Origin: Diacronema lutheri
Lineage: Eukaryota > Haptophyta > Pavlovophyceae > Pavlovales > Pavlovaceae
Assembly: GCA_019448385.1 (NCBI GenBank)
Contig: JAGTXO010000025.1
Location: 124,001-188,000 of the forward strand
Reading direction: 5' to 3'
DNA: 64,000 nucleotides
The notes under the pieces are model-generated. The model was given only the letters and a program-made list of their open reading frames with translations, was not told the origin of the DNA and ran no database searches. Made by a program: the position numbers and the translations under genes. Shown here piece by piece: positions 11,922-47,364 of the stretch (position 1 is its first letter; each line of letters begins with the position of its first letter).

Positions 11922-14900
11922 ATGGGGTCCGACCTCGGGCATGGCAAATCGCCGTACCCCGGCTGGCGGCTGCGCAAGCGGCTGCTCGCGCTCGCGTGCG
12001 CGCTCTCCCTCGCCGGCGTGCTTGCCGTGCTCACTACCGGCGCGCCCGCCGCGGGCGGCGCGCCGCGTGCGCGCCGCGAGCTCGCGCGCGTGGGCGGCGG
12101 CGGGCACGACGGCCGCGAGGGCGACGTGAGCTCGCTGCTCGCAGCAATGGTGGGCGCGGCGGGGCTCGCGCGCGCGGGCGCGCCCTCCGACAACGACGGC
12201 GCCGGCGCGTTGGCGCGCGTGTGGGGCTTTGCGGGCGCGGCGTTCGCGGACGATGGCGACGGCGGCGCGGACGTGCCGACCGTGCGCGGGTCGTGCCCCG
12301 ACTACTCGGGCCCGAACTGGCGGAAGGAGCGCAACCCGTCCAAGGAGCGCGAGCTGATCAAGCTCGAGATCCCCTTCGTTGGCCCCGCCGCCGGCGAGAC
12401 CGGCACGCGCGCGGACGGGCGGAGCGCGCCGCCCCCGCCCGCTCGCGCGCTGCGCGCGCTGCCGCTCGCGTCCGTCCGGCTGCTGCCCGGCACGCGTTGG
12501 GCGGCGCTGCAGGAGGCAAACCTCCAGTATTTGCTCGCGCTCGACCACGACGCGCTCCTCTGGTCGTGGCGCACGCTCGCAAAGCTGCCGACCCGCGGCG
12601 CGCAACCGCTGACGGGCTGGGAGCATCCGGGCAGTGAACTGCGCGGCCATTTCCTTGGCCATTGGCTTTCGGCGGCTGCGGCGCTCTCGGCGGCGCTCGG
12701 CGGCGGCGGCGGCGCTGTGACCCACAGCGGCGGCGCCGCCGCCACGCGCGTCGACGCGCGCGCGCACGCGCTGCGCGCCAAGGTGGGTGCCGTCGTCGCC
12801 GCGCTCGCGCAGTGCCAGGACGCGCTTGCGCGCGAGTCGGGCGCGCTCGGCGACGGGTACGTCTCGGCATTCCCGTCATCGCTGCTCGATCGCTTCGAGG
12901 CGTCGGAGCCCGTGTGGGCGCCGCTGTACACGCTGCATAAGGTGCTTGCCGGCCTGCTCGACGTGCACGAGTTGCTGCCCGATCTCGATGGCAATCTCGA
13001 TGGCAATCTCGATGGCAATCTCGATGGCGATCTCAATGGCAAACTCGATGGCGCGCCCTCGGCACCCGACGGCGCGCCGGCGGGAGCGGACAGCCAGCCG
13101 GGGACGAGGACGTCCACGTCAGTCGCGGACGAGGACGACGAGGAGGGCGACGAGGACGGCGCGCGCGCGGGAAGCGCGGCGCTGCGCATCGCCTTGCGCT
13201 TCGCCGCGTACGCCGAGCTGCGCGCCGAGCGCTCGATTGCTGCGCGCGGGCTTGACGGCCATTTCGGATCTCTGAACATGGAGTACGGCGGCTGGAATGA
13301 TTTCGTGTGGCGGCTCGCGCAGCTCACGGGCGACGCGCGGTGGAGGCGGCTCGGCTCGCTGTACGACAAGCCGTGCTTCCTCGCCGACCGCGCCGCGCCC
13401 GACCCGGCGGCGATCGACGCGCCCGCACTCCACCCGCTCGCCGGCCTCCACGCCAACGCACACCTGCCTATTGTCCTTGGCGCGCTCCGACGGCACGGCG
13501 TGACGGGCGAGGCGCACTTCGAGCGGCTCGGCCGTCGGCTGTTCCGCACGCTGAACAGCGCGCACGCGTACGCGACCGGCGGCACGTCCCACGCCGAGGT
13601 GTGGGGCCGGCCGCACGCGCAGGCCGAGACGGTCGAGCGCACCGCGCCGGTCGGCGTCGAGCACCAGGAGACGTGCAGCACGTACAACCACCTCAAGCTC
13701 GCGGACGCGCTGCTCCACTCGCACGCGCACGCGCCCGTCGCCGACGTGGCCGAGCGCGCGCTGCTCAACGGCGTGCTCGGCACGATGCGCGCTCTCGAAC
13801 CTGGCGCGCTTTTGTACTTTTTGCCACTTGGCGCGAATGTCTCCAAAGCGGCGGCGCAAGCATGGCGGCTCTCGGGCTGGGCGGCGCCGCACGGTGACTT
13901 TTGGTGCTGCTCGGGCACGGGCGTGGAGAACTTTGCGCGCCTTGCCGACCGCGTCTGGCTCGAGGCCACGTCGACGCCGCCCGCGCCGTCCGTCCACGGC
14001 ACGCCCGCCCCGCTGACGCGGCGCGCGCTGCTCGTCTCGCAGTTCGTGCCGTCGGCCGTGCGCTGGCTGCCCGGTGCGAGCGAGGCCGAGGTGGCGGCAG
14101 CGCAGGCCGCGCCGACCGCGCCAACGGAGCTGCTGCGCGCGCGTTTGGACGAGGCCGCACCGCTCGGCGCAGAGCGCACGCACCGCGTGACAGTCACGGT
14201 CGAGTACGCGAGCGAAAGCGGGCAGCGGTGCAGTGGGGATGGGCGGCGCGGCGCGGCGGATGCGGGCGATGTTGAGCTCGCGATCCGCGTGCCCGGCTGG
14301 GCGCACGCGGCCGCGCTCGGCGCGGAGCCCCGCAGGCCTGCGCTGCGTTTGAACGGTGCTCTTGTCGACATCGACTGGCGCGCGCTCGCCGCGCAGGACG
14401 GCGCGCACGGCGGCGCGCACGGCGGCGCGCACGGCGGCGCGCACGGCGGCGCGCACGGCGGCGCACACGGCGGCGCGGCGGCCGAAAGCGCGGCGCGCGC
14501 GCGCTTCGTCGGCGTCGCGCGCCGCTGCTGGCGCGCGGGCGACGCGCTCGAGCTCAGCATGCCGCTCGCGCTCACGTCCGAGCCCGCCGCCGGCGGCGGG
14601 CGCGCGCGCGGCGCGCGCGACGAGCTGCGCGCGCTGCTGTGGGGCCCGCTCGTGCTCGCGGCCCTCTCGTCGAGCGCGCGCGCCGGCAGCGTCGGCGCAG
14701 GCGGCGTGCCTCTGCTGCCCTTCCCGCCGTCGCAGCTGGGTGCGCGCTCGCTGCTGGTGCCCGCGTGCGCGCGCGAGCGGCTGCGCGCGCTCGTCGCGCC
14801 CGGCGGCGGCCTGCTCGCGCATGCGGGCGGGCGCGTGGGCGTGCGGCGCGGCCCGCCGCTCGGCGCGCCCTTCCGCCCGCCGCACGCGCGGCCGGGCGGC

Positions 14901-15605
14901 TCGGACGAGCTGAGCGCGGCCACATTTGGCGAGGTGGCGCCTGCGGATGGCCGGCCGAGCGGCGGCCCGCCATCGGTTGCGCTCGCCGCCTTCGACCGGC
15001 CCGGCTGCTTTGTCGCGCTGCCGAGCAGTGCGATGGCCGTGCGCGCCGACGGCGCGGGCGAGCGCGGCGCCGCGCGCGAATGGCCTGTGCTGCTCCGGTG
15101 CGACGTGACGCCCGACGCTGTCGAGGCCCGGTGGAGGCGGCGTGACGGCTTTGTGCCGGGGCTCGCGAGCTACGCGTACGAGTCCGTCGCGCTCCCCGGC
15201 TTCTTCCTCTCCGCGCTCTCGCTCGGCGAGGAGGCGGCGCTCGCGGCCGCGCCTGCGGGCGCCGACGCCGAAGGCGCCGCGCGCGACGCCGCGCCCGGCG
15301 CCGCTGGCGCGTTCGCGCCGGCGGTTGCGCGGCTGCCGCCCGCGCGGGTGGGCAAGTTTCACCCACCGCGCTTCGCCGCGCTCTCGACGTTCGCACTCGG
15401 CGCGCCGCTCGCGCAGTACCCGCCCGGTGCGTTCTGGGTGCACGCGGACGCGGCCGCCGCCGCGGCGGGCGTGGCGGCCGCGCGCGCGCCCGGGTGTGCG
15501 CGCGCGCACGCGCAGCCGGCGGGCGCTCTGCTGCTTGTGCCGCTCAACGAAATTGTGGATGAGCGGTACTCGGCGCACGTGCGCATGGCGCTCGAGGAAG
15601 GTTGA
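11922..15605 (+). CDS. GH127 family glycoside hydrolase (beta-L-arabinofuranosidase-like), membrane anchored
   Basis: Single exon, 1227 residues, ATG at 11922. A hydrophobic stretch KRLLALACALSLAGVLAVLT near the N-terminus predicts a type II anchor or signal peptide. The GH127 (former DUF1680) core is clear: GWEHPGSELRGHFLGHWLSA, GYVSAFPSSLLDRF, WAPLYTLHKVLAGLLD, GLHANAHLPIVLGA, VEHQETCSTYNHLKLADALL and FWCCSGTGVENFARL. In bacterial GH127 the ETC motif and the CC pair bind zinc, and one of those cysteines is the nucleophile; all are present here. The last residues LLLVPLNEIVDERYSAH match the end of plant homologues, so this is a plant/algal-type enzyme. It should trim L-arabinofuranose from hydroxyproline-rich glycoproteins or wall polymers in the secretory pathway. 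Two 12-bp repeat arrays encode Leu-Asp-Gly-Asn and Gly-Gly-Ala-His inserts. It is intronless among intron-rich neighbours. Confidence 0.85.
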   Translation: MGSDLGHGKSPYPGWRLRKRLLALACALSLAGVLAVLTTGAPAAGGAPRARRELARVGGGGHDGREGDVSSLLAAMVGAAGLARAGAPSDNDGAGALARVWGFAGAAFADDGDGGADVPTVRGSCPDYSGPNWRKERNPSKERELIKLEIPFVGPAAGETGTRADGRSAPPPPARALRALPLASVRLLPGTRWAALQEANLQYLLALDHDALLWSWRTLAKLPTRGAQPLTGWEHPGSELRGHFLGHWLSAAAALSAALGGGGGAVTHSGGAAATRVDARAHALRAKVGAVVAALAQCQDALARESGALGDGYVSAFPSSLLDRFEASEPVWAPLYTLHKVLAGLLDVHELLPDLDGNLDGNLDGNLDGDLNGKLDGAPSAPDGAPAGADSQPGTRTSTSVADEDDEEGDEDGARAGSAALRIALRFAAYAELRAERSIAARGLDGHFGSLNMEYGGWNDFVWRLAQLTGDARWRRLGSLYDKPCFLADRAAPDPAAIDAPALHPLAGLHANAHLPIVLGALRRHGVTGEAHFERLGRRLFRTLNSAHAYATGGTSHAEVWGRPHAQAETVERTAPVGVEHQETCSTYNHLKLADALLHSHAHAPVADVAERALLNGVLGTMRALEPGALLYFLPLGANVSKAAAQAWRLSGWAAPHGDFWCCSGTGVENFARLADRVWLEATSTPPAPSVHGTPAPLTRRALLVSQFVPSAVRWLPGASEAEVAAAQAAPTAPTELLRARLDEAAPLGAERTHRVTVTVEYASESGQRCSGDGRRGAADAGDVELAIRVPGWAHAAALGAEPRRPALRLNGALVDIDWRALAAQDGAHGGAHGGAHGGAHGGAHGGAHGGAAAESAARARFVGVARRCWRAGDALELSMPLALTSEPAAGGGRARGARDELRALLWGPLVLAALSSSARAGSVGAGGVPLLPFPPSQLGARSLLVPACARERLRALVAPGGGLLAHAGGRVGVRRGPPLGAPFRPPHARPGGSDELSAATFGEVAPADGRPSGGPPSVALAAFDRPGCFVALPSSAMAVRADGAGERGAAREWPVLLRCDVTPDAVEARWRRRDGFVPGLASYAYESVALPGFFLSALSLGEEAALAAAPAGADAEGAARDAAPGAAGAFAPAVARLPPARVGKFHPPRFAALSTFALGAPLAQYPPGAFWVHADAAAAAAGVAAARAPGCARAHAQPAGALLLVPLNEIVDERYSAHVRMALEEG
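12981..13052 (+). repeat. 12-bp coding repeat (six copies)
   Basis: Tandem GATCTCGATGGC-type units in the GH127 gene encode a (Asn/Asp)-Leu-Asp-Gly series. They lie in an Asp/Glu-rich insert between conserved blocks. Confidence 0.9.
14400..14472 (+). repeat. 12-bp coding repeat (about six copies)
   Basis: Tandem GGCGCGCACGGC units in the GH127 gene encode Gly-Gly-Ala-His repeats. They keep the frame and lie in a loop region of the C-terminal beta domains. Confidence 0.9.
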
Positions 15606-15851: not shown

Positions 15852-18363
15852 ATGGCGAGCGACGCGGTCGCGCCGCTCGCAGCTCGCATGCCTTCCGGTG
15901 TGGCGCCCGCCTCCGCGGCAGCGCCAGGGACAGCGCTAGCGGGCACGCACCACTCGCCCATTGCGCCCACAGCGGCCGCGGATCCCGCGCAAGCCGCACC
16001 GCAGCCCGCCGGCGCGGCGGCGCCTCTTGCGCCGGCGGCGCCCGCCGCGCCAGCCGAGGCGGTGAGCACGCCAGGCCGTGCGGCGCCGCCGCCGCCCGCC
16101 GCCGGCGTCGCGGGCGCGCCCGCTGCTGCCGACGAGGAGGACGAGGACGGGTCGGGAAAAAAGGGCTGCTCGGGCTCCAACGTGAAGCGCGCGTGGTCGA
16201 GCGAGGAGGACGCGACGCTGCTCCGAATGATCGAGACGCACGGCGCGCAGAATTGGTCGACAATCGCGTCGCACCTTGACGGCCGCGTCGGCAAGCAGTG
16301 CCGCGAGCGCTGGTTCAACCACCTCTGCCCCGAGGCGCGCGCGCCCTCCCTCCGCTCGCATTTCGCTCGCCCTCCTGCCCACCTCGCTGACGCGCGCGCG
16401 CGCGCGCGCGCGCGCGCGCCTGCTCTGTCGCCTTGACCGCGCGCCACGGCTCGGCTGCCCGCCCACCCACGCCCGCTCCCCGCCCGCTCCCCTCCCCTTT
16501 CGGCCTCAGGTGAAGAAGGGCGACTGGACGGTGCAAGAGGACCAGATCATCATGGAGTCCGTCAAGGAGCTTGGCACGTGTTGGTCCAAGATTGTGAAGC
16601 TGCTGCCCGGCAGGACCGACAACGCGATCAAGAACCGGTACAACTCGACGATGCGCAAGAACCTGCGCGCGCAGCTCAAGCCCAAGCCGCCGCCCCCGCC
16701 CGAGCCGCCGCCGCGCCAGCCGGCCGCCGACGGCGGCGACGGCGGCACAGGAGCGCACGACGCCAAGACGCCCGCGAGCAAGAGCCGCAAGAAGCGCACA
16801 GCCGCGGAGCGCGCCGCCGCCGACGCCGATGGCACCGACGGCGCTGACGACGATGCGAGCGGTGCAGGCAATGGCGGCAAGCCGGGCGCAGCGGCTAAGC
16901 GCGCGCGCGCGCCGCCCGCCAACGCGTCGCACCCGGCGGCGGCGGCCGTTGGCCTCGCAATCCGTGTGGGCGGCGCGGGCGGTGGCGACGACGATGACGA
17001 TGACGACTCGCGCGCGCTCTTCGGCGCGCCCGAGCTACGTGTCGGCTTCCTCTCGCCGTTCTCGGAGGCGGGCCCGTCGCCCGAGGGCGAGCGCGAGAAA
17101 TTGCGCGCACTCTTGGACTGCTCGACGCCCAACCTCGACCTCCTTGCGACGGTCGGCGCGTCGGACCGCGCGCACGCGGGCGGGTACAACAGCGCGTATG
17201 CGTTCGCGCAGCTCGTCGGGTCGGCCGGCCGCGCCGGCTGCGGCCGCGCGGGCGGCACCTCCGCAGCAAGCGGCGCGCTCGCACACCGCGGCGGCGGCGG
17301 CACGCCCGTCCTTGGCCTGGGCGGTCTCGAACTGCCCGACGCAACGGACGTTTCGATGGCCGACGGCGCCGACCACCCGGCGCGCCGACTGTACGCCGGC
17401 CGCGCGCCCGGTGGCGCTGAGGGCGCCATGCTGCGCATGTACTCGTGTGCGCGCACTGGCGGCCATGGCATGGCGAGCGACGTGCACGCGGGGATGGCGC
17501 GCTCACCGCGCGCGGCACTCTCGCTCTCGCTCTCGCCGTCCGATTCGCCCACGCTTGTGCCCGCCGGCGCCGTCCGACGGCCGACGGGCGCGCCAGGGTC
17601 GGAGGCGCTTTTTGCCCTACCCTTGCTCTCCGCACCGCCCTCGCCGAGTACGCGCCCGCCCGCTGCCGCCTCGGGCGCGCCCTCGCCCACCGCCGCATTC
17701 GCCGACGCGCGCGCGCGCGCGCGCGACACGCCGCCGTATCCCGGCTCGCGTGCGCACTTGTTGCTCGACGGGATGCTCAACATTCACGATGGCGACGGCT
17801 TGCCCACGCGGGGCGCGGGCGAGTTGGCGGGCGGCGCGGCGCTCGAGCCGTGGGGCGGCCCAGCCGGCCACGCGCGCGCGCGGAGCGGCGTGTCCACCAG
17901 CGCGAGAGGCGGCGCGCGCGAGGCGCAGGGCGAGCACGCCTTCGCGCTCGCGCGCCTCTCCGCCGCGAGCACCGACGGAGCGGACGACAACGGGCGCGGA
18001 GGGCAAGCGGAGATCAGGCGAGCGCTCGAGCAGGCGCTGCAGCGGCGCGACGGCGCGGGCGCCGACACGCCGCGCGCGTCGCCGCGTCCGGGCAAGATCG
18101 ACCTCGTAGCGACGCGTCCGGGCAAGATCGACCTCGTTGCCGCCGCGTCGGTCGGCGATGCGCTCGGCCGCGCGCTCGGCAGCGCAGGTACGCGCGCGAT
18201 CGCGGTCGCGGCGGCCGCGAAGGGCGGCACGCCGCTGCCCGACGACTGGCGTGACCTTGACTCGGCCGCGCTGCTCGACAATCTGCTCCTCTCGCCCGGC
18301 AACACGCCCGGTGCGCTGCAGGCCCTTGAGCGCCAGCTGGTGGTGAGTGGCTTCTTGCAGTAG
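15852..18363 (+). CDS. R2R3-MYB transcription factor
   Basis: Exons 15852-16334 and 16510-18363 give 778 residues. R2 is [20 protein letters not shown]...NWSTIASHL...[15 protein letters not shown], and R3 is [18 protein letters not shown]...[21 protein letters not shown]; the tryptophans that build each helix-turn-helix are present. The junction falls exactly between the repeats (CPE/VKKGDW) in phase 0, which forces a GC-AG intron with donor GAG|GCGCGC. Such proteins bind YAACNG-like sites as monomers in the nucleus. The remaining 600 residues are Ala/Gly/Ser-rich and disordered. They include an exact duplication of RPGKIDLVA (about 18087-18138) and a C-terminal [17 protein letters not shown] segment that looks like a short amphipathic, possibly activating, helix. 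The ATG at 15852 is chosen; an in-frame ATG upstream at 15720 is possible. Confidence 0.85.
16335..16509 (+). other. GC-AG intron of the MYB gene
   Basis: The junction is fixed by the MYB R2/R3 boundary and by phase 0 on both sides. The donor is GCGCGC and the acceptor CCTCAG. It contains a (GC)n run at about 16395-16421. Confidence 0.65.
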
Positions 18364-29832: not shown

Positions 29833-31134
29833 ATGTCGCACCGGCAAGCGCGAGGCGCGCGGGCGCGAGAGCCGCGAGCCGTCGGCTCGAGGGTAGCCGG
29901 GACGCGTGGTCGCGCGGCCATCTGACACGCGTTGCCATGCGCTTTGGCGTCCGTGCGCTCGCCCCGCCCGCTGCGCAGCAAGTTTGAGCACCCGCGCTGC
30001 GGCTCGCTCGGCTTCTTGCCAAAGAAGCGCGCGCGCCGCCACCGCGGCCGCGTCAAGACGTTCCCGAAGGACGACGCGTCCAAGCCGCCGCACCTGACGG
30101 CGTTTCTCGGCTACAAGGCCGGCATGACGCACATCATGCGCGAGGTCGACAAGCCAGGCTCCAAGCTGCACAAGAAGGAGGTCGTCGAGGCCGTCACGAT
30201 CATCGAGACGCCGCCCGTCGTCGTCGTCGGCATCGTCGGCTACGTGCGCACGGCCAACGGGCTGCGCTGCCTGACGACGGTGTGGGCAGAGCACCTCTCC
30301 GAGGAGTGCAAGCGCCGCTTCTACAAGAACTGGTACAAGTCGAAGAAGAAGGCCTTCACCAAGTACGCGAAGAAGCACGCGGACGGCGCCAAGGACATCG
30401 CGCTCGAGCTGCAGCGTATCCGCGATTATTGCGAGGTGGTGCGCGTGCTCGTGCACACGCAGATCCGCAAGATCAAGATTGGCCAGAAGAAGGCGCACAT
30501 TGCCGAGATTCAGGTCAACGGCGGTTCCATCGCGGACAAGGTCGACTTCGGGCACAAGATGCTCGAGAAGCAGGTGCCCGTCGACGCCGTCTTCGCCGCG
30601 AACGAGATGATCGACGTGATCGGCGTGACTAAGGGCCACGGCTACGCGGGCGTGATCTCGCGCTGGGGCGTCACGCGCCTCCCGCGCAAGACGCACCGCG
30701 GCCTGCGCAAGGTTGCGTGCATCGGCTCGTGGCACCCGTCCAAGGTGCAGTGGTCGGTCGCGCGCGCCGGCCAGATGGGCTTCCACCACCGCACGGAGAA
30801 CAACAAGAAGGTGTACAAGGTGGGCAAGGGTGAGGACAAGTTCAACGCCTCCACCGACTTTGACCTCACCGAGAAGCAGATCACGCCGGTCGGCGGCTTC
30901 GTCCACTACGGCCGTGTGAACGAGGACTTTTTGATGCTCAAGGGCTGCGTCCTCGGCACGCGCAAGCGCATCATCACGCTGCGCAAGTCGCTCTTCGAGC
31001 AGACGAGCCGCTCGGCGCTCGAGGAGATCAAGCTCAAGTTCATCGACACGTCGTCCAAGTTTGGCCACGGCCGCTTCCAGACCATCGACGAGAAGACCAA
31101 GTTCATGGGGCTGCGCAAGCGCAAGATTGCTTGA
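29833..31134 (+). CDS. RPL3: 60S ribosomal protein L3 (uL3)
   Basis: An 11-nt first exon, 29833-29843, encodes MSHR (last codon split). It joins exon 2 (29979-31134) to give [20 protein letters not shown], the near-universal uL3 N-terminus. The protein is 388 residues, normal for the family. Other landmarks: [36 protein letters not shown] and [20 protein letters not shown], which contains the conserved W-finger region near the peptidyl transferase centre. The intron is GC-AG (donor CG|GCAAGC), the only way to recover the canonical N-terminus. Codon use is strongly biased to C/G-ending codons, as expected of a highly expressed gene. An alternative non-spliced start at 29932 gives a wrong N-terminus. 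Confidence 0.97.
29844..29978 (+). other. GC-AG intron of RPL3
   Basis: 135 nt, phase 2, donor GCAAGC, acceptor CTGCGCAG. It splits the codon for Arg4 of the canonical MSHRKFEHPR sequence, which makes this the best-supported GC donor in the window. Confidence 0.88.
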
Positions 31135-36560: not shown

Positions 36561-37772
36561 TCATACAGGATCCAGGGCCACGCCCGAGCACGCCGCCGCG
36601 CGCGCGCGCGCGAGGAGCGCGGAGGCGCTCTCGCTGCGCGGCGCCAGGCGCAGCGCCTCGCGCAGCGCCGCCTCGGCGCGCGGCACGTTCTCTGGTCGGC
36701 CGAGCTCGAGCAGCGCGTGCGCGAGGCCGACGTGTGCGCTCTCGCTCAGCTCGGCCGCACCCATCCGGAGCGCCTCGGCGTACCCGTCCGCGGCCGCGCC
36801 GAGCAGCTCCTGGCGATGCGCCGAGCTCGACGCGGGCGCGATGCGCAGCGCGGCGGCGAGGAAGCGTGCGGCGCGCTGCGTCGAGATATGCCCGTGCGGC
36901 ACGGCGGGCGCGGAGAAGAGCCACGCGACGAAAATGTACCGGCGACCGCGCGTGATCGGCGCGCCGCCGTGACGCACCGTTGCCGGGTGCATTATGACGT
37001 GGCCCGCCGGCCGCCGGAGCACGCCGTGCCGGTGGCCCGGCTGCGCACTCGGCTCAAGCGCCTCAATCAGAGTCCCCCCTCCATCGTACTCGTTCTCGGC
37101 GTTGAGAGCAATGGTCACGGCGACACCCGGCCCATCGCGGTGCACGCCGAGGTGCGTCTGCCCGGCCGTGGCCCTGTACCTCAGCACGCTCGCCGCGGAG
37201 CACCGGAGCAGCTCGGGCGAAAGCTCGTCGGCGGCAAACGCCGCGTGCACGGCGGGGAAGATGGTGTCGCGCAGCCGGTCGTTGAACCAGCGATGCGCGT
37301 GCGGCAGCTCGCGCACGGGCCGGAAGCTCGGCGCGTTGCTCGCGTATGACGCCAGCGGCTGCGCACCGCGCCACGCCGGGTCCGCCTCCGCCTCGGCGAT
37401 CACCGCCGCGCACTCTTCGGCGGAGAACAGCGGCTCGCGCGACGCGCGCGCCAGGTCCGCCGTGCCAAACGGTGCGTACGGTGCGCCATCCAAGCCGTCG
37501 TCCGCACGGCCGCTGAAGCTGAACACGTCCCACGCGTGCGGCGCTGCGCGCGCGTTCTCGCGAGCCGGCGGCGTGCCTGCGCCGCGGGCCGCGTGCGAGA
37601 AGAAGAGCTCCTCGCTTCGCCGTGTCTCCTCGGCGTGGAAGCGCGCGTTGTCCACGCGCGCTGCCACGTCATCACGCGCAGCGGCCCCGAGCGGGTTGGT
37701 CCGCCCCACCGCCGGCGCGAGCGGGTTGCGAGCGACCGCGCCCGTCGCTATCCAGATCAAAACGGACGCCAT
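36561..37772 (-). CDS. 2-oxoglutarate/Fe(II) dioxygenase (prolyl 4-hydroxylase-like) with C-terminal helical repeats
   Basis: Single exon, 403 residues, ATG at 37772. The N-terminus MASVLIWIATGAVA is weakly hydrophobic. The double-stranded beta-helix has the HxD iron motif in LGVHRDGPGVAVTIALN, a GGGTLIEAL strand, the distal iron His in MHPATVRHGGAPITRGRRYI and the 2OG-binding Arg after it. This arrangement is that of P4Hc-type dioxygenases; the substrate is unknown. Upstream, FSAEECAAVIAEAEADPAW is the typical leading helix. The last 110 residues are alpha-helical, with TPR-like spacing (LLGAAADGYAEALRMG, AHVGLAHALLELGRPENV, AEAALREALRLAP). Confidence 0.82.
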   Translation of the reverse strand: MASVLIWIATGAVARNPLAPAVGRTNPLGAAARDDVAARVDNARFHAEETRRSEELFFSHAARGAGTPPARENARAAPHAWDVFSFSGRADDGLDGAPYAPFGTADLARASREPLFSAEECAAVIAEAEADPAWRGAQPLASYASNAPSFRPVRELPHAHRWFNDRLRDTIFPAVHAAFAADELSPELLRCSAASVLRYRATAGQTHLGVHRDGPGVAVTIALNAENEYDGGGTLIEALEPSAQPGHRHGVLRRPAGHVIMHPATVRHGGAPITRGRRYIFVAWLFSAPAVPHGHISTQRAARFLAAALRIAPASSSAHRQELLGAAADGYAEALRMGAAELSESAHVGLAHALLELGRPENVPRAEAALREALRLAPRSESASALLARARAAACSGVALDPV

Positions 37773-37851: not shown

Positions 37852-39004
37852 ATGGACTACTCTCGGCGCGCGGGTGACAATGCGCCGATTGATGTCGCGA
37901 TGGTCTCTCGGCTGATCATGGACCGCGCCACGATGCGTGCGCGCCGCGACTTTAAGGCCGCCGACGGCGTGCGCGACGTGCTCCAGGGCATAGGCGTCAC
38001 CGTGCACGATCAGTCGATGGAGGTTCGCGCCGCGCCGCGGGCGCCGCGCCGCGGGCGCGCAGCAGGGCGCCCATCATCGACGGCGCGTCGCGCCGGCCGC
38101 AGATGCGAACGGCAGCCGGCCACATGCGCGTGCTCATGGTGCCGCGTTCCTCCGCGTGCGCCGTCTCCGCGCCCGCCAGTGGTTTGTGGACAGCCAACGC
38201 GGCCATGCCGAGTGCGCCGGCGGCTGCGCGCACAGCGGCCACGCCAACGGCGGCGGCAGTGCGCCCCACGGCGCGCACGCGACCGCATACAGCTTGCCCA
38301 GTGCGCCGGTTGACGTTGCGCACGTCGAAGCCCTCGTTGCGCAGCGCGCGGAGCTGCGCAGCTTGCGCGTCTACGCGCGCGCCGACGCGGTGCTCGCCGA
38401 GCTTGAGACAATGGGCGTCACGGTCCACGACCGCGGCGGCCGCGGCGGCCGCGGCGCGGCCCGCGGCGCCGGCCGCGGCACCAGCCGCGGCTCACGCGAT
38501 GGCGACCGCGGCGCTCGCGGGTTTCCGCGCGAGTTGGCCGTGCCACGCGAGCCCGCCGACTTTGGCCCGCTCGGCCACGACTACGCGCGCGCGCCCGACG
38601 ACCTGGTCGGCCTCGCCTCCGAGACGCTCGACGAGATCAACCGGCTGCTCGCGCGGCGGCTCGCCGCCAAGATGGCTCGGCGCTTCGACGAAGCCGACCA
38701 GTGTCTTGCCGAGCTCCAAACGCTCGGCTGCGTCGTCAACGACAAGCCGCCGAGCTGGCGCGCAGATGGGTGCGCCTTCCCGTCGCACACGCGCGTCTCG
38801 AGCGGTGAGGACGACACGCACGTCGACGAGGCGTACGTGCACGCGCTCCTTGAGCAGCGCGCGAACGCGCGGTCGCAGAAGGACTATATAACCGCGGACG
38901 CGCTCGCCGCGCAGCTCAAGGCTGAGCTGAACATCTCGCTCGACGACAAGCGCGGCACGTGGTGCGTGGGCCGCATGCCGCACGCCATCGGCCGGCGCGC
39001 GTGA
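37852..39004 (+). CDS. Protein of four helical repeats resembling the CysRS C-terminal motif
   Basis: Exons 37852-38022 and 38180-39004 give 331 residues. Four copies of a motif 'I..L...R...R..kdf..AD.ir..L...Gv.v.D' are visible: LIMDRATMRARRDFKAADGV with GIGVTVHD; LVAQRAELRSLRVYARADAV with TMGVTVHD; LLARRLAAKMARRFDEADQC with TLGCVVND; LLEQRANARSQKDYITADAL with NISLDD followed by TWCVG. The motif is well known at the C-terminus of cysteinyl-tRNA synthetases ('R..AR..KDF..AD.IRDEL...Gi.l.D...GT.W'). Here it stands alone without a synthetase domain. The intron lies right after repeat 1 and joins MSME to WFVDSQRG. A Gly/Arg linker (RGG type) separates repeats 2 and 3. Possible RNA binding is inference. 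Confidence 0.72.
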
Positions 39005-39347: not shown

Positions 39348-42300
39348 TCACACGTGCCAGCTGGCGGCTGCGAGCGCGCCGCGCACGGCCCTGCGCACGC
39401 CCGCATTGAAGTCGTCAAAGGCGCGCTCGTCCGCGTTCACCGACTGGGCGCTGCGCGCGGCCGCGCTGCGGGTTGTGGTCCGAGCACCATCACGCCCACG
39501 CTGCGGGTCGTCGTCGTCGTCGCGCTCGCGCGCCATCCGAGACTCGCCGTCGCCGCCGTACGGGCCTGCGCGCTGAGCAATGGCGTCTGCGCTCTGGCTG
39601 CGCCGGAAAGGCGCCGCGCGGCCAAACGAGATGGTGGTGACGAGGGCCCTGCCGAGCTCTGCAGCGCCAGCGCCCACCGCGCACGCGCCGCTCGGCGTCG
39701 CGCCGCCGCGCTCGCTCTCGCTCGCGCGGTCGCGCGCCGGCGACGTCCACCTGCTGTTGCCGCTCGAGCGGCGCCCCGCCGATGCGCTGCACTCGGCGGG
39801 CTCGTCGGCGCGCTCGGCTCTGCCAAACGACGCGCTGATCAGCTTGAGGATCATGATCCGGTCGCTCTCGAGCGTCGCCTCCGCCGAGCGCGCGTCGAAG
39901 AGGGGATCGGCGTAGAGCTGCCGGTGCTGCCCGGCCGCCCTGCGACGCACCGTGAGCGCCCGGCGGAAGGCATCGCGCTCCGACGGAGGCACGGCGAGGG
40001 CGAGCGGCAGCCGCGCGAGCTGGCAGTGCGCGATCTCGAAGCTGCGCACCGCGCGCGGGCGCAAACGAATCACGGATCGGGACGCCGCCGCCGCCGCGCG
40101 TGAGGGCACCGCCGCGCGCGCGGCCATCCCCGCGCGCGCGCATCGGGCCGCGCGGATCGCGAGGCGCGTGCGATCGACGCGACGCGCGCAGCCGGAACAT
40201 GGCGCGCATCAAATCCGCGAGAGCGCGCACAGGCACCTGCAAACGCGTGCGAGCGGCGAGCGTCGGTGCGAAGGGCGGAGGGGCGCGCGAATCGGGCGCG
40301 AGCGGGTACCTCGCGCGCATGCCCCCGCACGCGCGCAAGGCGCCTGCCGCAGTGGCGGCCGCACGCGGGAGCGTGCGCCGCACCAGACGCGCCGCAGGCA
40401 TGCGGGGCGGTCCCAGGGGTCGAGGACGACGAGCACACCGCCCAACTCGCGCACGACCGCGCCGATGTGCACCACAGCCGAGCCCACGTCGTGCTGCCGG
40501 ATGACGGCAAAGTCGACCCACACGTACGTCGTGAGCAGCGGCAGCGAGTAGAGTTTGAGGTGCGCCTCGACCGCGCCGAGCAGGTTTGCGAAGGAGCACG
40601 ACTGCGCGTGCGAGACGAAGATCGACGCCTCGCCGACCGCAGCCGCGCCGCTGCCGCCGTTGAGCGCGCACGCCCCGTCACCCGCGCGCGCGTGCGCGTG
40701 CGCCTCTGCGAGCGATACGCGCGCGTCAGCGGTGCGAGCGCGGACGAGCTCGGCAACGTGGCGAGTGCTTGCCGTCGCGACGCCGTCCTCGCCCAGCGCG
40801 GTCGTCGCCCACCTGTGCGCGGCGCGCGTGGCGGACGGCGGGGCGGGGCGCGCGACGCGGTTCGCGTCGGTGGCGGTGGCGATCGCACGCATCGTCGCGG
40901 CGCGCAGCAGCTCGCGGTGCAGCCAGCGCGGTGCGCGCACGTGCGCAGAAAGGAGAGCGATACGCCGAGCAGCAAGTGCGGCGGCATCTCTACGCCGCTC
41001 GTCGCGCCCTCGCGCAGCACACGATTCGCATCGCGCGCCGGCCTCGTGCGCTGCCTGCCTCCCCCCCAACCGCTCACGTGCGCCCTGCGCGCGGCAGCGT
41101 GGTGGCCGCCGCCGCCGCCGCTGCCAGAGGCGTTTGCCGCGAGGGGTAGTTCGGCACGCCAGGGCGATTCGCCGCGGCCGGCGGCGCAACTTGCGACGCG
41201 CGCGCCCACCGCGCGGACGCCGTCGCGCCCGTCGCCGCCAGCCGCTCCGCCGGCGCCGCGCGCGCCCGCCGCGGCCGCACCGTCCTTGTCGTGCGCGCGT
41301 GCCGCAAAGAAGGAGCCCGGCCGCGTGGGCACAGCCGAGCTGTGACCGTTGCTCATAAAGCTGTCCGAATCCGCGCGCGATGGCGAGCGAGCGCCATGCT
41401 CGCCGGACGGCAGCCATCGTGCACTTTCGTGCACCGGCGCTGCGAGCGGCGGCAGGTTGAGCGGCCGTGCGTCCGAGCGTACGGGCGTGACACGAGCGCC
41501 GATGCCATTGCTTGCCGCGCTTCCCCCAAAGGCCGCGCCGCCATGCACACCATCAGTGCCTGTCCGCGCGCACCGCACGGCAGGCGGCAGTTCGCAGCAG
41601 TGCGCGTAGCGGCCAGCTCCGGCGCGTTCACAGCTGGCCGCGCTGGCGCTGGCGCTGGCGCTGGTGCTGGCTCTGGCGCTGGCGCTGGCGCTGGCGCTGG
41701 CGCTGGCGCTGGCGCTGCCCGCTGCGCGCTCGGGCGAGGCAACCGAGCCGCAGCGGCGCAGCGGCGGCGCGGACGGCGCGTCGTCGCCGCGTGCGGCAAC
41801 CGCCGCGCGCGGGCGCGCGGCGCGCGCAATGGCAACGAGCGTGCGCGTCATGAGCATGCACGCGCGCAAGAGCGGGCCGCGCGCCACGGTCCCGCCGCGC
41901 GGTGTGAAGGCGGTGGTAATCACGACTGACTTGGCCGTGAGCGCCGCGAACAGCACGGCGAGGAAGGGCAGCTGCCGCGGAGCGCGCACGGCCGCCCACG
42001 GCGCGGATACCGACGCAAGCAGGGCGACGAGGCAGCAGCAGATCGTGCCCGCGAGCGAGCGGCGGAGGCGGCGAAGGAGCGGTCGCGGAAGCGACGAGCT
42101 GAGCTCCGTGCGCAGCCGCCATTCTGCAACGAGCGCGAGCAGCAGCATGGAGGCTGGGAGCAGCGCGCAGTGCAGCGCCACATGCCACAGGAGAGCGCAC
42201 ACGCCGCCGTCCGCGCCGGCCGGCGCGCCCGACGCGGCGATGGACGCGAGGTTGAGCGCGGCGAAGAGCGAGACGGCGGCGCGGTGGGAGGCGCGCGTGA

Positions 42301-43231
42301 GCCGCATCGACGCGACGCCCGCCGACGCGACCGCGTCCAGCACGTATGCCGCGTACAGCGCGACGCCAATGTTCCCAACGCCGAGCGGGAGCGCCCCAAG
42401 CACGAGCATCACCTCAAAGTCGACGGCACGGCGTGAACACATCGGACCGGCGGCGAGCCACGCAAGGCGGCTGGCGGCGGCGCACAGCTGCACGCACATG
42501 ATCCCGTGCGCGACCGTCACGCGCAGCCCGGCGTCCTCGCGCACAAGCGCGATGAGACGTGCGGCGGCAAGCTCGGCAGCGAGGAGCTGCGCCAGGCCGC
42601 ACAGCAGCACCGTCGCCGTCCACGCTCGGCTGGACCATACACGCAAGTAGGTAGGCTCGCTTGGCGTGAGGCGCGCGTGCACGACCGCGCCCTCGCGCAG
42701 CGCGCTGACGAGTGCGCGCGCGCGCCGCGACGTGAGGTCCGCTGCGGGCGGCGGCGCTCGGCGCGGCGCGCGCGCGTCCGCGCGGAGCCGGATGTTTGTC
42801 GCGGCTCCCGGCTGCGGATCGCCGAGCAGTTGGACGGCGGCCTCGTCGAAATGCATCCATGCGGCCGCGCCGTACGACGCCGTCGCGGCCGCGTGCGCCT
42901 CGAAAGAGCAGCGCAGCCATTCGGCGCTCGCGTGCAGCACGAGCGCGCCTCGCAGCCGCGACGGATCGCCAGCAAAGCGCGGCGGAGAGGCACAGCCGGC
43001 GAGCGCATAGAGCCAGTCCGTGCGTTCGGTGAGCACGACGCGCGCCTCGACGTCAAACTTGGCGCGCGAGAAGGCGAATGGCGCGGCAGGCACGCCGCCG
43101 CGCGCGAGCGCTCGCACAAGCGCGCCCGCGCCCTCGCCAACCGCCGACATGACGACCAGCTCGGCAACCGCGGCGCGCGGGACACACAGCGCGAACGCAA
43201 GGAGCGCACTACGCACGCTCCGGCGCGTCAT
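39348..43231 (-). CDS. Seven-transmembrane protein with C-terminal TIR-like domain
   Basis: Exons 43231-40964, 40910-40384 and 40041-39348 give 1162 residues. The N-terminus (MTRRSVRSALLAFALCVPRA) is a signal peptide, followed by an ectodomain of about 180 residues. Seven hydrophobic helices follow at about 202-225, 235-258, 272-298, 316-332, 342-370, 390-410 and 420-440. A Ser/Ala-repeat linker (41634-41718) and a 250-residue disordered region lead to a TIR-like domain (about 850-960): IFVSHAQSCSFANLLGAV, TYVWVDFAVIRQHD and VLVVLDPWDRPACLRR, then CFEIAHCQLARLPLAL. This is the 'SHaW...vWiD..avnQH...ldPW..P..L.RaWC.fEi' family common in algae and other protists. The first intron is only 53 nt and ends GCGAG, a weak acceptor. 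It is accepted because it alone joins the two frames in phase. The second intron, 40383-40042, is solid. Ligand and output are unknown. Confidence 0.72.
41634..41718. repeat. 6-bp repeat (GCTGGC) coding for Ser-Ala
   Basis: About 14 near-perfect hexamers. On the minus strand they encode alternating Ala and Ser in the linker of the 7TM-TIR protein. Confidence 0.9.
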
Positions 43232-43380: not shown

Positions 43381-45033
43381 ATGGCGAATGGCAAGCAGGA
43401 ATCGATGGGAGAAGTCGTGCTCGCGTCGAGCGGGATGGTGATCAAAGCGGGCGGCGTGTTTGAGCTGCCGATCAAGGTGGATCGACCGAGCGTTCTCCGC
43501 ATCCGCTTCGAGGTTGACGAGGGCTACGACGTCGACTTCTCCCTCAAGTTCCTCGAAGACACGGACAAAGCCTCGATCCAAACCGTGCGCGCCGGCGCGC
43601 GCGCGCGGCGCGTGCCGGCGCGGCAGGGCGCGCGCGATCTTGCGCGCGCGGCGCGCAATGGAAGGGTTGGTATGCGTCCTTTGTGGCTATGCATGCGCCC
43701 GAGCACCACCGCCCGCCGATCGTGCCCGAGTGCCGGGCGCTCACGTGCACGTGTGGCGGGCGCTCGCGCGCGCGCCGCGACCGCGCCGCGCAGCTCGTCG
43801 AGCCGGCGCGCTCGTTCGCACGCGAAGGGCAACTGGACATCCATACAACGGGCACGTGCTTCGTCGTCTGGGATAACGCCTTCTCGTGGATCAACCCCAA
43901 GTCGCTTACGTGCGGCGCGTGCTCCGCCTGCCGCCCGCCTCTTTTTCGCTTTCGCGCGTGCGCCCGCTCGGCGCGCACGCCCCGCGGCTCAGCGGCCATT
44001 CTGTCGCGCCTGGTTCGCCACCACGTCGATGTCTCCGCAGCACCGTGCCCGCAGCCGGCGCCATGCTCTCCTTCCGCTCGCCGCGTGGCGGGCGGTGCCT
44101 GCCACGCGCGTGTAAGGGGCCGCCTGAATGACAGGGCCCAACTTTGGGGCGCAAGCGGGCGGAGCCCCGCCTCGTCCTCACAGTGCCCTCGCGCCGGCCC
44201 TGCGCTCTGCCTCCCCTGCCCCTTCATCCCGGCACGCAGCTACCATCTCTCGCTCAAGTCGAAAGAGGACATTGAAAAGGCGCGACAGGCCGAGCTCGCG
44301 CGCCTTGCGGCTCTGCGCATGGTTGCCGCACGCGAGAGCAAGGCTGCGCTGCGCGCGCAGCGCGCAGCCGTCATCTTGGAGCTCGAGGGCAAGGTGCGCG
44401 CGCACGGTGGCTGGCAAATCGCTCTCGCGCGATGCCGCCCGCGCCCATTCTCTCCGCACCTTGCGCCTCCTCCCCCCCCCAGCTGACACCCCCCCCCCCC
44501 CCGCGCGCGCGGCGCGGCGCGGCTGTGCCTGTCGCGCTCGCGCATGCGCGCGCTGCGTTTCGCCTTGCAGGTGGCTGAGATGATGGGCAACGAACACACG
44601 GCGCGCGGCAAGCTGATGGCCAAGCAGGCCGAGCTCAAGCGGCTCGAGGCGGCGTACAACGCGGCCAAGGCGGGCATAATGGCTATCGCTGATGAGGTGC
44701 GCTCAGCGCACTTTCCACCCCCCCCCCCCCCCCCAACCCAACCCAAGCCCCTTCCCCGCCCCCTTGCCGAGCCGCGCACAGCGCTCTTGGCGTGGCGAGC
44801 GGCGCGCACTGCGCGTGGCCAACCACCCTCCTTGTTCAGCTTGCCGCGCGCACTGCGCGTGGCCAACGCCCAGCCTCTCGGCCTGACCGCCATCCTTCGG
44901 CGCCCACCCGCCCGCCCACGCGCAGGCGGACGTTGCGGAGCAGCTCGCGGCCGAGATGCAGGACAAGCTCACCGCGCTGCTCGACGCGGCCGCGGCCGAC
45001 GAAGAGGACAACGCGCTCTCCACCGTCGAATAG
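43381..45033 (+). CDS. GOLD-domain protein with coiled-coil tail
   Basis: Five exons (43381-43584, 43794-43909, 44240-44393, 44571-44696, 44926-45033) give 235 residues, all phases matching. The GOLD beta-sandwich spans exons 1-3: VIKAGGVFELPIKV, VLRIRFEVDEGYDVDFSLKF and TTGTCFVVWDNAFSWINPKS, where 'G.c...wDN.fSw...k.l.Y' is the typical closing strand, as in SEC14-like and TMED proteins. The remaining 120 residues are a charged coiled coil (DIEKARQAELARLAALR, KLMAKQAELKRLEAAY). There is no signal peptide or C-terminal membrane helix, so it is not a p24 cargo receptor. A cytosolic adaptor at Golgi or endosomal membranes is more likely, as inference. A G-run follows the stop codon directly. Confidence 0.78.
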
Positions 45034-45179: not shown

Positions 45180-47364
45180 CTAGTTCATCACGGCAGGTTT
45201 CCTGCCCAGCCGGAAGGGCTCCATCTCCGAGCGCGCTTTGCGCGACTCGTGGATCTCAAGTTGGCGCGCAGACACCTGCGCACGGACGCAGCGTACCGCG
45301 CGGCGAGTAGACGGGCGCCGTGAGCAAGCTGCGGCCGCACCCCCCCCCCCCCCAACCCCCTAACGCACGTCACGAACGAGGGCGTGCGCCAATCCCCCCC
45401 CCCCCCCCCCCCCCGCCGGCCACGGACGCTCACGGCAGCGCCGGGCGGAGGAGGGCGAGCAGAGCGGCCGCGTGGGCGCCCTCCTCCGCCCGGCGCTGAG
45501 CGGAGGAGACACGCCGTGCGCTGAGAGCAATCTCACCTTGGCCTCGATGACGCGCGCGGCCTCGAGGTTGAGCGGCGTGCGCTGCTCGGTGGCCGCGTGC
45601 TGACAGAGCGTCTGCACGTGGAAGTAGAGCGCAGCGTACCTGCAGCGCGTACCCCGGGTGCGGAGCGGGTCGTACGGGAGGGGTCGTAAGGGAGGGGTCG
45701 TAAGGGAGGGGTCGTAAGGGAGGGTGTACGCCGCCCGGTCCGCTCTCTGCGCGCGCGCATCGCGGCCGTGTGCGCGCGCGCGGCTCGGCGGCGCGCACGT
45801 GGAGGCTGAGACGGAGACGTTGTATTGCAGGAGTTCGAGGAAGCGGTTCTCGAGGTGGTTGATCTCGCGCAGCGAGAACATGGGGCAGAAGGCGGAGAAG
45901 TCAGCGTTGGTCAGGCAGTTATCGTCAAAGACCTTCTGCGCGACGATGATCGCCGCGAGCACGATCGGGCGCCACGTGGACGAGAGCACCTTCACCGCCG
46001 TGTTGTTGAGCAGCCGCTCGATGTAGATCAGCGCGATCACCACGCACTCGTCCGAGAAATGCGCAGAGTCGTAACTGCGCGCACACAGCCCGCCGTGTAT
46101 GCAGCATGGCAGATGCCACGAGCGCATGGCGGGCGGGCGGGCGGGCGGGCGGGCGGGCGGATGGGTGGATGGGAGGGCGGGCACGGTGAGAGCTGTGCGG
46201 CGCATACTATGGGCGCACGCGCCCTGCCGCGCCGTCGCCCGTGCCGCGCACGGAGGGAAGAGGCGTAGAAGGGAGGGAGAGGGAGAGGGGGGGGGGGGCG
46301 CGTACACGCTCTTGATCGTCTCGGAGATGAGCGCCTCCGAAGGACGCACGCGCTCACGCCTCAAGCGCGTGCGCCTGAGCTGCGATGGCGAGCCTGGCTC
46401 CGAGTAGAGCGGGTTGTTATCCTCCGAGAGGAAAGGGTATTCAACCTGCATCTCGATGTGGTGCGCCTCGAGGTCCGGGCCCACCTCGTCCGCGCAGATC
46501 CGGTCGTGCAGCACAATGGCGACGCAGAAGATCATCTCCGAGATCTGCGGCTTCGAGATCGTCGAGGTGATGTACATGGTCGACGTCGAGTTGTACTTGC
46601 TCGCCTCGGCGGGCCTGCGCTGCGCGAGGAAGATCTGCGCGCCGTCGGCAGGCGCGCGCGGCGCCGCGGACACGAGCGCGCGCGTGCGCGAGGCACGTCG
46701 GCGATTGGCGCGCACGCGTGCCGGGCGGCAAGCACATACACACAAGTGCGCGCGCGAGTGCGAGAGGTTGCTGAGCGCGTGCAGCGCGTGCCAATGGCGC
46801 CGCCTCGCGCTTGCCGCTGCAGCGACGCAGCGCGCACCTGCTGCTGCGCGCGCGCGGCGAGCGGGCCGCTGAGGTCGACGGAGCGGCCCTCGGCCAGACC
46901 GCGCGCGGCCAAGGTGGGCCGAGCCATTGGTGTTGTGCCGGCGCTCGCCGCCTTACCCACCGACCGCTCGTCGTCGCCGGCGTCGACGTCCATACGCGCG
47001 GCGCCGTCACCCGGCGAGAGCAGGTGGTTCGCGGCGAGCACGATGCGGTTGCGGTGGCCGGGCATGACAATGCCGAGCTCCGTACACCGCTCGGCTGTGA
47101 GTGACGGCAGGTCTGCCACGCCCACCCCGCTCAGCTGTTGCGCGTACCGCTCCATCCGGATCGCTGAGAGCCACGCCTCGACGGAGGTGGCCCTCGTCGG
47201 GAACTCTGCGCGCACGAGCGACGCGCGCGCGGTGCGCGACGCCGCACGGCGCACGCGCGTGCGCGTGGTGTCGGGACGGCGCCCCACGCGATCCCACGCG
47301 CCGCGCGTGCGCTCAATCACGCTCGCGACGGCGCGAACTGGCGCATACCAACACCCGCGGACAT
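45180..47364 (-). CDS. CCNY: Cyclin Y-like protein with N-terminal SAM domain
   Basis: Exons 47364-47349, 47205-46838, 46634-46306, 46074-45799, 45639-45537 and 45275-45180 give 395 residues with all phases matching. Exon 2 encodes a SAM domain: SVEAWLSAIRMERYAQQL, LPSLTAERCTELGIVMPGHR and NRIVLAANHLL. Exons 3-6 encode a cyclin box of the Cyclin Y/PHO80 type: YITSTISKPQISEMIFCVAI, DECVVIALIYIERLLNN, STWRPIVLAAIIVAQKVFDD, EINHLENRFLELLQYNVSVS and YAALYFHVQTL. Cyclin Y recruits and activates CDK14/16-type kinases at the plasma membrane. Animal CCNY has an N-myristoylated tail rather than a SAM domain. The 16-nt first exon encodes only MSAGV plus one base; it is chosen because its GTATGC donor gives the right phase. 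It should be checked with RNA. Confidence 0.82.

Follow-up and report, generated by a model that had tools for sequence, protein, structure and literature searches.

We have analysed a 64,000-nucleotide stretch of the haptophyte Diacronema lutheri (contig JAGTXO010000025.1, positions 124,001 to 188,000; hereafter the window, in whose numbering all positions are given). On its minus strand lies a gene that appears to join a seven-transmembrane (7TM) part and a TIR-like domain in one protein. We consider, with a probability of roughly 0.57, that this protein is a one-component 7TM receptor with a C-terminal TIR-like output domain, a variant of the G protein-coupled receptor (GPCR)-bigram plan. 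According to the translation, the gene encodes, in this order, a signal peptide, an ectodomain, about seven hydrophobic helices, a low-complexity linker, the TIR-like domain and a tail. The description covers a single gene copy in one 64-kb window, and the gene model was derived from the DNA. TIR domains serve in immunity and cell death in other systems, and where they occur on membrane receptors, the best-known examples have a single membrane span; if our reading is true, two major eukaryotic sensor plans would be joined in one chain.

Gene structure and coding evidence

The predicted splicing gives three exons with 1,162 codons and a stop codon at 39348-39350, and both introns have GT-AG ends (Table 1). 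A first-pass annotation of this DNA had described the gene, its strand, its two introns and its motifs, and we recovered all of them at the same positions. The G+C content of the window is about 73% on average, and a value of 73.25% is given for D. lutheri (PMC8379373).

Coding potential was followed in all frames with a three-periodic Markov model, in 120-nt steps with scores per 240 nt. The model was trained on seven other stretches of the window, with the gene itself excluded; six of the seven match a Pfam family above the cut-off, and the stretch 36564-37772 lies below it. Over the ectodomain and the helices, scores per 240 nt ranged from -8.6 to +27.4 in the exon 1 frame and were -36 or lower in the two remaining minus-strand frames. 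The exon 1 frame was the best of the three minus-strand frames in all 240-nt steps from 43360 to 40961 except 41800-41561. From about 40960 on, the exon 2 frame leads, reaching up to +24.1 at the TIR-like block, and this change from the 7TM to the TIR frame coincides with the 53-nt intron. In the steps inside intron 2 no frame was positive, and the TIR frame regained weakly positive scores in exon 3, as far as about 39400. No stop codon interrupts the exon 1 frame before 40070; accordingly, a separate 7TM gene with no further introns would overlap the TIR exons. On both sides the gene is bounded by neighbours, namely a plus-strand open frame starting from an ATG at 43381 and a stretch matching CysS_C that ends at 39001. 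Because the coding scan, the open frame and the splice sites agree, we favour a single gene joining the 7TM-like and TIR-like parts, which is the simplest reading of the DNA, though not a proven one.

Part of the linker weighs against this reading. Between 41920 and 41201 the score of the exon 1 frame was -8.6 to -36.4, and a plus-strand frame was slightly or clearly ahead in five steps; the exon 1 frame was best again in steps 41320-41081 and 41200-40961. The coding scan thus supports the exon model and the change of frame, though only part of the linker. This ambiguity, together with the dependence of the join on a frame switch across a short intron, would suit two tandem genes on the same strand, one for a 7TM protein and one for a separate soluble TIR-like protein whose start would be Met763 (ATG near 40892) or an ATG at 41417. 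The TIR frame is indeed open upstream to 41552 and has the ATG at 41417. However, in steps 41560-40961 this frame scored about -55 to -57 per 240 nt and the exon 1 frame -5 to -23, so a coding role of the long open frame, or of the 41417 start, upstream of the TIR-like block is unlikely. In addition, with its frame open to 40070, the 7TM gene would need another intron to end. We therefore regard two genes as unlikely and continue with the single gene. In the stretch examined, eight stop-free candidate introns join the 7TM and TIR frames, three of which use the acceptor at 40911, and accordingly the exact junction at intron 1 is only provisional.

Retention of either intron would change the product. 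With intron 1 retained, the 7TM frame runs on to 40070 (40070-40963, minus strand), giving a protein that has no TIR-like domain. Intron 2 has a length that is a multiple of three and contains, at 40209-40211, a TGA that is in frame with exon 2; its retention would end the TIR-like domain before the glutamate E934 described below, which may represent a possible switch between forms.

Membrane part and ectodomain

After the signal-peptide-like peak at residues 10-28, hydropathy peaks start at residues 206, 243, 274, 318, 351, 397 and 421. For comparison, 0-3 hydrophobic peaks were counted in eight other genes in the window. Between residues 196 and 480, charge-free stretches are enriched, on the one hand in number (6 versus a mean of 3.3, reached by 53 of 2000 shuffles) and on the other hand in the residues that they contain (134 versus a mean of 77, reached by 22 of 2000). 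Lysine and arginine are mildly commoner on the inside, with 20 of 111 residues in loops 1, 3 and 5 and the tail against 4 of 31 in the outside loops 2, 4 and 6. Cys265 precedes the third helix (TM3), Cys345 lies in the second outer loop, and we take this placement to be like that of the GPCR disulfide between TM3 and the second extracellular loop.

Other results are less favourable to a 7TM receptor. Including the signal peptide there are eight hydrophobic peaks, a number reached by 242 of 500 shuffles of the Ala/Leu/Val-rich residues 1-480. No Pfam family matched exon 1 or the 7TM piece, so that no curated GPCR family was recovered, and the single-sequence model of the 7TM part was poor, with a predicted local distance difference test (pLDDT) value of 39. 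The hydropathy variance of residues 196-480 was not above that of shuffles (1148 of 2000 reach it). Considering that the charge-free stretches are enriched but the peak count is not above shuffles, we conclude that the seven membrane helices of the first-pass annotation are likely, short of shown.

The last hydrophobic helix contains a lysine, Lys434 (41930-41932, minus strand), in an AKS context, as does the last helix of animal opsins; there was no opsin match, and this is probably a chance occurrence in an Ala-rich helix. A rhodopsin reading of this lysine was dropped, since there is no Pfam match and the Asp that in rhodopsins stands four residues before the last-helix lysine is absent by eye.

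The ectodomain matched no Pfam family, the PA domain PF02225 included. A segment of 22-23 residues may be PA-like; in hhalign comparisons with PA domains, its score was reached by 5 of 300 and 4 of 400 shuffles, which is weak.

The TIR-like domain

The motifs of the C-terminal domain are SIFVSHA (residues 852-858), VWVDFAVIRQHD (886-897), LDPWDRP (919-925) and CFEI (932-935). Three loose TIR-like patterns have one match each in the six frames of the window; all three matches share a frame, span about 75 codons at most and follow the order expected. The patterns were drawn partly from what is usual in TIR domains and partly from this sequence, and do not represent an independent test. When strands and helices were named by eye against the bacterial TIR of locus L052, SIFVSHA was placed as strand A, FANLLGAVEAHLKL as helix A, TYVWVDFAVIRQHD as strand B, AVVHIGAVVREL as helix B, GVLVVLDPWDRP as strand C, CLRRVCFEIAHC as helix C with E934, and PLALAVP as strand D. 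At strand A, ASIFVSH is a Box 1-like start, the Box 1 consensus of TIR domains being given as YDVFISY (PMC7075850).

A profile comparison with 66 bacterial TIR domains is consistent with this layout. In the local mode of hhalign, domain residues 4-74 were aligned with TIR columns 1-62 in the expected register from A to C. This score was reached by 3 of 400 shuffles for the domain alone and by 1 of 500 column shuffles when the L014 fragment, a possible relative described below, was included in the query; in absolute terms the alignment is weak, with a probability of 3-8%.

The first-pass annotation had also asked whether a catalytic glutamate is present, and there is a candidate, E934 (codon 40035-40037, minus strand). 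By eye, and depending on the intron 2 boundary, E934 in CFEI sits between GVLVVLD of strand C and PLALAVP of strand D, 14 residues past the end of strand C, compared with 12 in the bacterial TIR L052. In TIR domains, the glutamate at this place is E75, and NAD-cleaving (NADase) activity, where it exists, depends on it; more than 70% of TIR domains conserve E75, and how often it occurs does not always track activity (PMC7075850).

On the other hand, the family and fold tests lend no support to a TIR assignment. Searched with exon 2, exon 3 and the joined domain, Pfam gave no TIR family at E <= 10, and no family scored above the cut-off in Pfam, NCBIfam or PADLOC, where only a sub-threshold DUF1633 appeared (best E 0.03). 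There was no significant sequence match to the domain in the PDB. A HMMER profile of the 66 bacterial TIRs ranked the domain 12th of 203 sequences, 200 of which were shuffles, and the global mode of hhalign gave no sensible TIR alignment. A TIR fold has five strands and five helices. Modelled from its single sequence, the exon 2 piece (pLDDT 48.8) showed two leading elements followed by strand-helix-strand-helix, with strand C unformed, and a Foldseek search with this model listed 921 matches, none of them at E <= 0.001. The other NAD-pocket residues and the Box 2 pattern were not placeable by eye. Around the glutamate, the usual TIR motif is WCxxE; the predicted splice yields R-V-C-F-E-I, in which the Trp is lost.

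Two kinds of candidate were set aside. Other choices of intron 2 that keep the Trp of WC have only GC donors further in and displace the Glu. Among the Foldseek matches, the top ones (RuvC and an anti-sigma factor antagonist) do not reach significance; a TIR-APAZ complex contributes one chain at rank 44 (E 1.0), which is meaningless as well.

Because these family and fold tests were weak or failed, we name the domain TIR-like only and do not class it as a TIR family member. Of the TIR-like block claimed earlier, the local register is weakly supported, but a curated match is absent and HMMER remains at chance level. With no family match above the cut-off, no significant fold match and a HMMER rank not above shuffles, the block could be another alpha/beta domain, either HET-like or an unrelated Rossmann-like one, behind a 7TM part that would be a transporter or channel; its W-x-D and Q pattern may also resemble that of HET domains. 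Against this stand the hhalign register from strand A to strand C, the start resembling Box 1 and the position of E934 between strands C and D. The large ectodomain behind a signal peptide and the Arg-rich cytosolic loops also argue against a transporter or channel. Accordingly, we give this alternative a low probability and prefer a receptor with a TIR-like domain.

Relatives of the domain

A motif scan of bacterial genomes found one relative fragment of 80 residues (L014:4267-4506), which lies at the end of a contig from a Flavobacteriales metagenome-assembled genome. Its BLASTP value against the TIR-like domain was 7e-5 in a single comparison. Since the fragment had been picked by its W-x-D motif, the remainder was tested separately, and 0 of 5000 shuffles reached the score outside the motif. 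The fragment shares FVS, LGA(V/L)E.H and W(V/L)D...(R/N)QH with the TIR-like domain in one frame. Unlike the D. lutheri protein, it is cut by the contig end and has no visible membrane part. On its own it matched no Pfam family and had no significant hit in the PDB. Over its last 500-base step the contig has a G+C content of 0.47, up from 0.31-0.38, and therefore we consider the fragment likely to be a eukaryotic scrap in a chimeric assembly. The second half of the TIR-like domain, residues 932-1000, is covered by no independent relative.

Searches by protein for relatives of the TIR-like domain gave 18 pattern stretches in viral contigs and 43 stretches in genome contigs, none of which was confirmed. 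There was no match in phages (tblastn, E <= 1) and none in five prokaryote genomes searched by protein (0 of 5, with no positive control). DNA motif scans of viral contigs gave 1 stretch, in which the motif frame is broken by a stop, then 26 including that stretch, and then 4; the scan of genome contigs gave 20. Among the 46 loci from motif scans, 35 have the motif and the other 11 failed the amino-acid pattern, and a family-like context was found only in L014. None of the four further viral-contig stretches has such a context. For the ectodomain and the 7TM part, 4 stretches in viral contigs were obtained and none was confirmed.

Comparison with known receptors

GPCR-bigrams are reported from oomycetes and other eukaryotes in six types, GPCR-PIPK, GPCR-TKL, GPCR-INPP, GPCR-AC, GPCR-PDE and AP-GPCR, and GPCR-PIPKs are present in haptophytes (van den Hoogen et al. 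2018, PMC5784254). The predicted protein would be like these in having a 7TM part and a signalling accessory domain in one polypeptide, the accessory domain being C-terminal in five of the six types. It would differ in its output domain, as none of the six types described there bears a TIR and no word beginning with TIR occurs in the main text of that paper. Choanoflagellates have GPCR-TKL/K, and in the text of that source the word TIR occurs 0 times (PMC12716839).

With Toll-like receptors the protein would share an extracellular sensor, a membrane part and a cytosolic TIR toward the C-terminal side. However, those receptors are single-span proteins with leucine-rich repeat ectodomains (PMC7075850), whereas here about seven predicted helices follow another kind of ectodomain. 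A 2026 preprint atlas contains 7,432 eukaryotic TIR domains and describes six eukaryote-only uncharacterised clades (3 and 9-13); those domains are divergent and lie outside the studied clades, as ours may do, and the atlas notes TIRs missed by earlier Pfam models (PMC13142454). The terms haptophyte, GPCR, 7TM and Haptista each occur 0 times in its main text. Also in the atlas, the amoeba protein TirC has a TIR domain with a possible membrane tether. In contrast to the 7TM part and putative output of the present protein, TirC is small, has one hydrophobic helix, is of bacterial descent and has a reported NADase activity (PMC13142454).

Among the matches listed from the open-licence literature (titles and abstract openings), we found no 7TM-TIR protein, and no paper there pairs a TIR domain with a seven-transmembrane protein in haptophytes or with a GPCR architecture in unicellular eukaryotes. 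In the D. lutheri genome paper, TIR, receptor and GPCR each have 0 occurrences. Within the literature searched, the 7TM-TIR combination looks new. If true, it would add to the accessory domains recorded on 7TM receptors. It would also give access to immune-like or death signalling in phytoplankton, whose blooms are brought down by viruses and bacteria and in which the output is known for few surface receptors.

Proposed mechanism

In the favoured reading, the N-terminus of the receptor would be outside and the C-terminus inside, with a long flexible cytosolic linker leading to the TIR-like domain. A ligand may bind the ectodomain or the helix bundle, and the receptors would then shift conformation or cluster, drawing the tethered TIR-like domains together. 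Considering that TIR domains act on self-association, this clustering would either assemble a signalling scaffold or turn on NAD+ cleavage through E934. In this way one polypeptide could couple sensing to output, as GPCR-bigrams do, and would need neither a G protein nor an adaptor. Ligand-driven clustering of the tethered domains would be the most economical mechanism. The protein may serve as an environmental or immune-like sensor, and its TIR-like domain may cleave NAD+, as the first-pass annotation suggested.

Between the two outputs, we consider a scaffold slightly more likely than NAD+ cleavage. As a form of the favoured reading, a non-enzymatic TIR-like scaffold that recruits partners, with E934 in a structural role, comes somewhat short of an even chance. 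E75 is also frequent in TIRs with no reported activity (PMC7075850). The disturbance of WCxxE by the predicted splice and the other pocket residues, not identifiable by eye, also point to a scaffold; E934, however, is kept at about the expected spacing, which would be more in line with an enzyme. The fuller proposal, a haptophyte one-component receptor in which the seven-helix sensor controls a TIR NADase directly, G protein and adaptor being dispensed with, appears improbable to us. If it were true, a surface ligand would cluster the receptor and lead to an NAD-derived messenger or to death by NAD depletion, and the protein would be a further kind of GPCR-bigram, the first 7TM-TIR within the literature searched.

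Feature coordinates and neighbouring genes

Table 1. Predicted features of the 7TM-TIR-like gene in window positions.
Feature	Position	Strand	Basis or remark
Exon 1: signal peptide, ectodomain, 7TM part and most of the linker	40964..43231	-	ATG 43231, open frame, coding scan
Signal peptide, residues 1-23	43163..43231	-	Hydropathy only; peak at residues 10-28, 2.03
Ectodomain, residues 24-202, with Cys80 and Cys108	42626..43162	-	Possible PA-like segment CSFEAHAAATASYGAAAWMHFD
Seven hydrophobic helices (likely), residues ~203-442	41906..42625	-	Hydropathy peaks, charge-free stretches
Linker, first part, low-complexity, predicted cytosolic, residues 443-756	40964..41905	-	Translation; coding scan partly ambiguous
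Intron 1, 53 nt, GT-AG	40911..40963	-	Frame switch of the coding scan
Exon 2: remaining linker and TIR-like strands A-C	40384..40910	-	Open frame, coding scan
TIR-like domain, part 1, residues 851-932: IFVSHA, VWVDFAVIRQHD, GVLVVLDPWDRP	40384..40628	-	Motifs, local profile alignment, L014 fragment
Intron 2, 342 nt (3 x 114), GT-AG	40042..40383	-	No positive frame in coding-scan steps inside
Exon 3: remaining TIR-like domain, low-complexity tail and stop	39348..40041	-	Open frame, coding scan
TIR-like domain, part 2, residues 932-1000: CFEIAHC with E934, PLALAVP, SERDAFRRAL, DRIMILKLI	39837..40041	-	Translation

The plus-strand open frame at 43381-43600 lies head to head with the gene, about 150 bp from its ATG; its sequence (MANGKQESMGEVVLASSG...RIRFEVDEGYDVDFSLKFLED) recalls GOLD-type domains, and its first 73 residues gave no Pfam match. 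On the other side, the plus-strand stretch 38174-39001 has three matches to CysS_C, the anticodon-binding domain of cysteinyl-tRNA ligase (E 2.6e-14), and no other family. Further away, a large plus-strand open frame (11949-15602) matches the catalytic domain of GH127 beta-L-arabinofuranosidase (E 1.2e-58), and the minus-strand stretch 2999-4072 matches the alpha-1,4-glycosyltransferase conserved region Gb3_synth (E 4.5e-12). The window also encodes a SET-domain protein (9616-11808, plus strand), a Myb-like DNA-binding protein (16276-18360, plus strand) and a cyclin-domain protein (45363-46745, minus strand). A ribosomal protein L3 gene at 29926-31131 (PF00297, E 6.8e-180) was read as being of the cytosolic/eukaryotic type.

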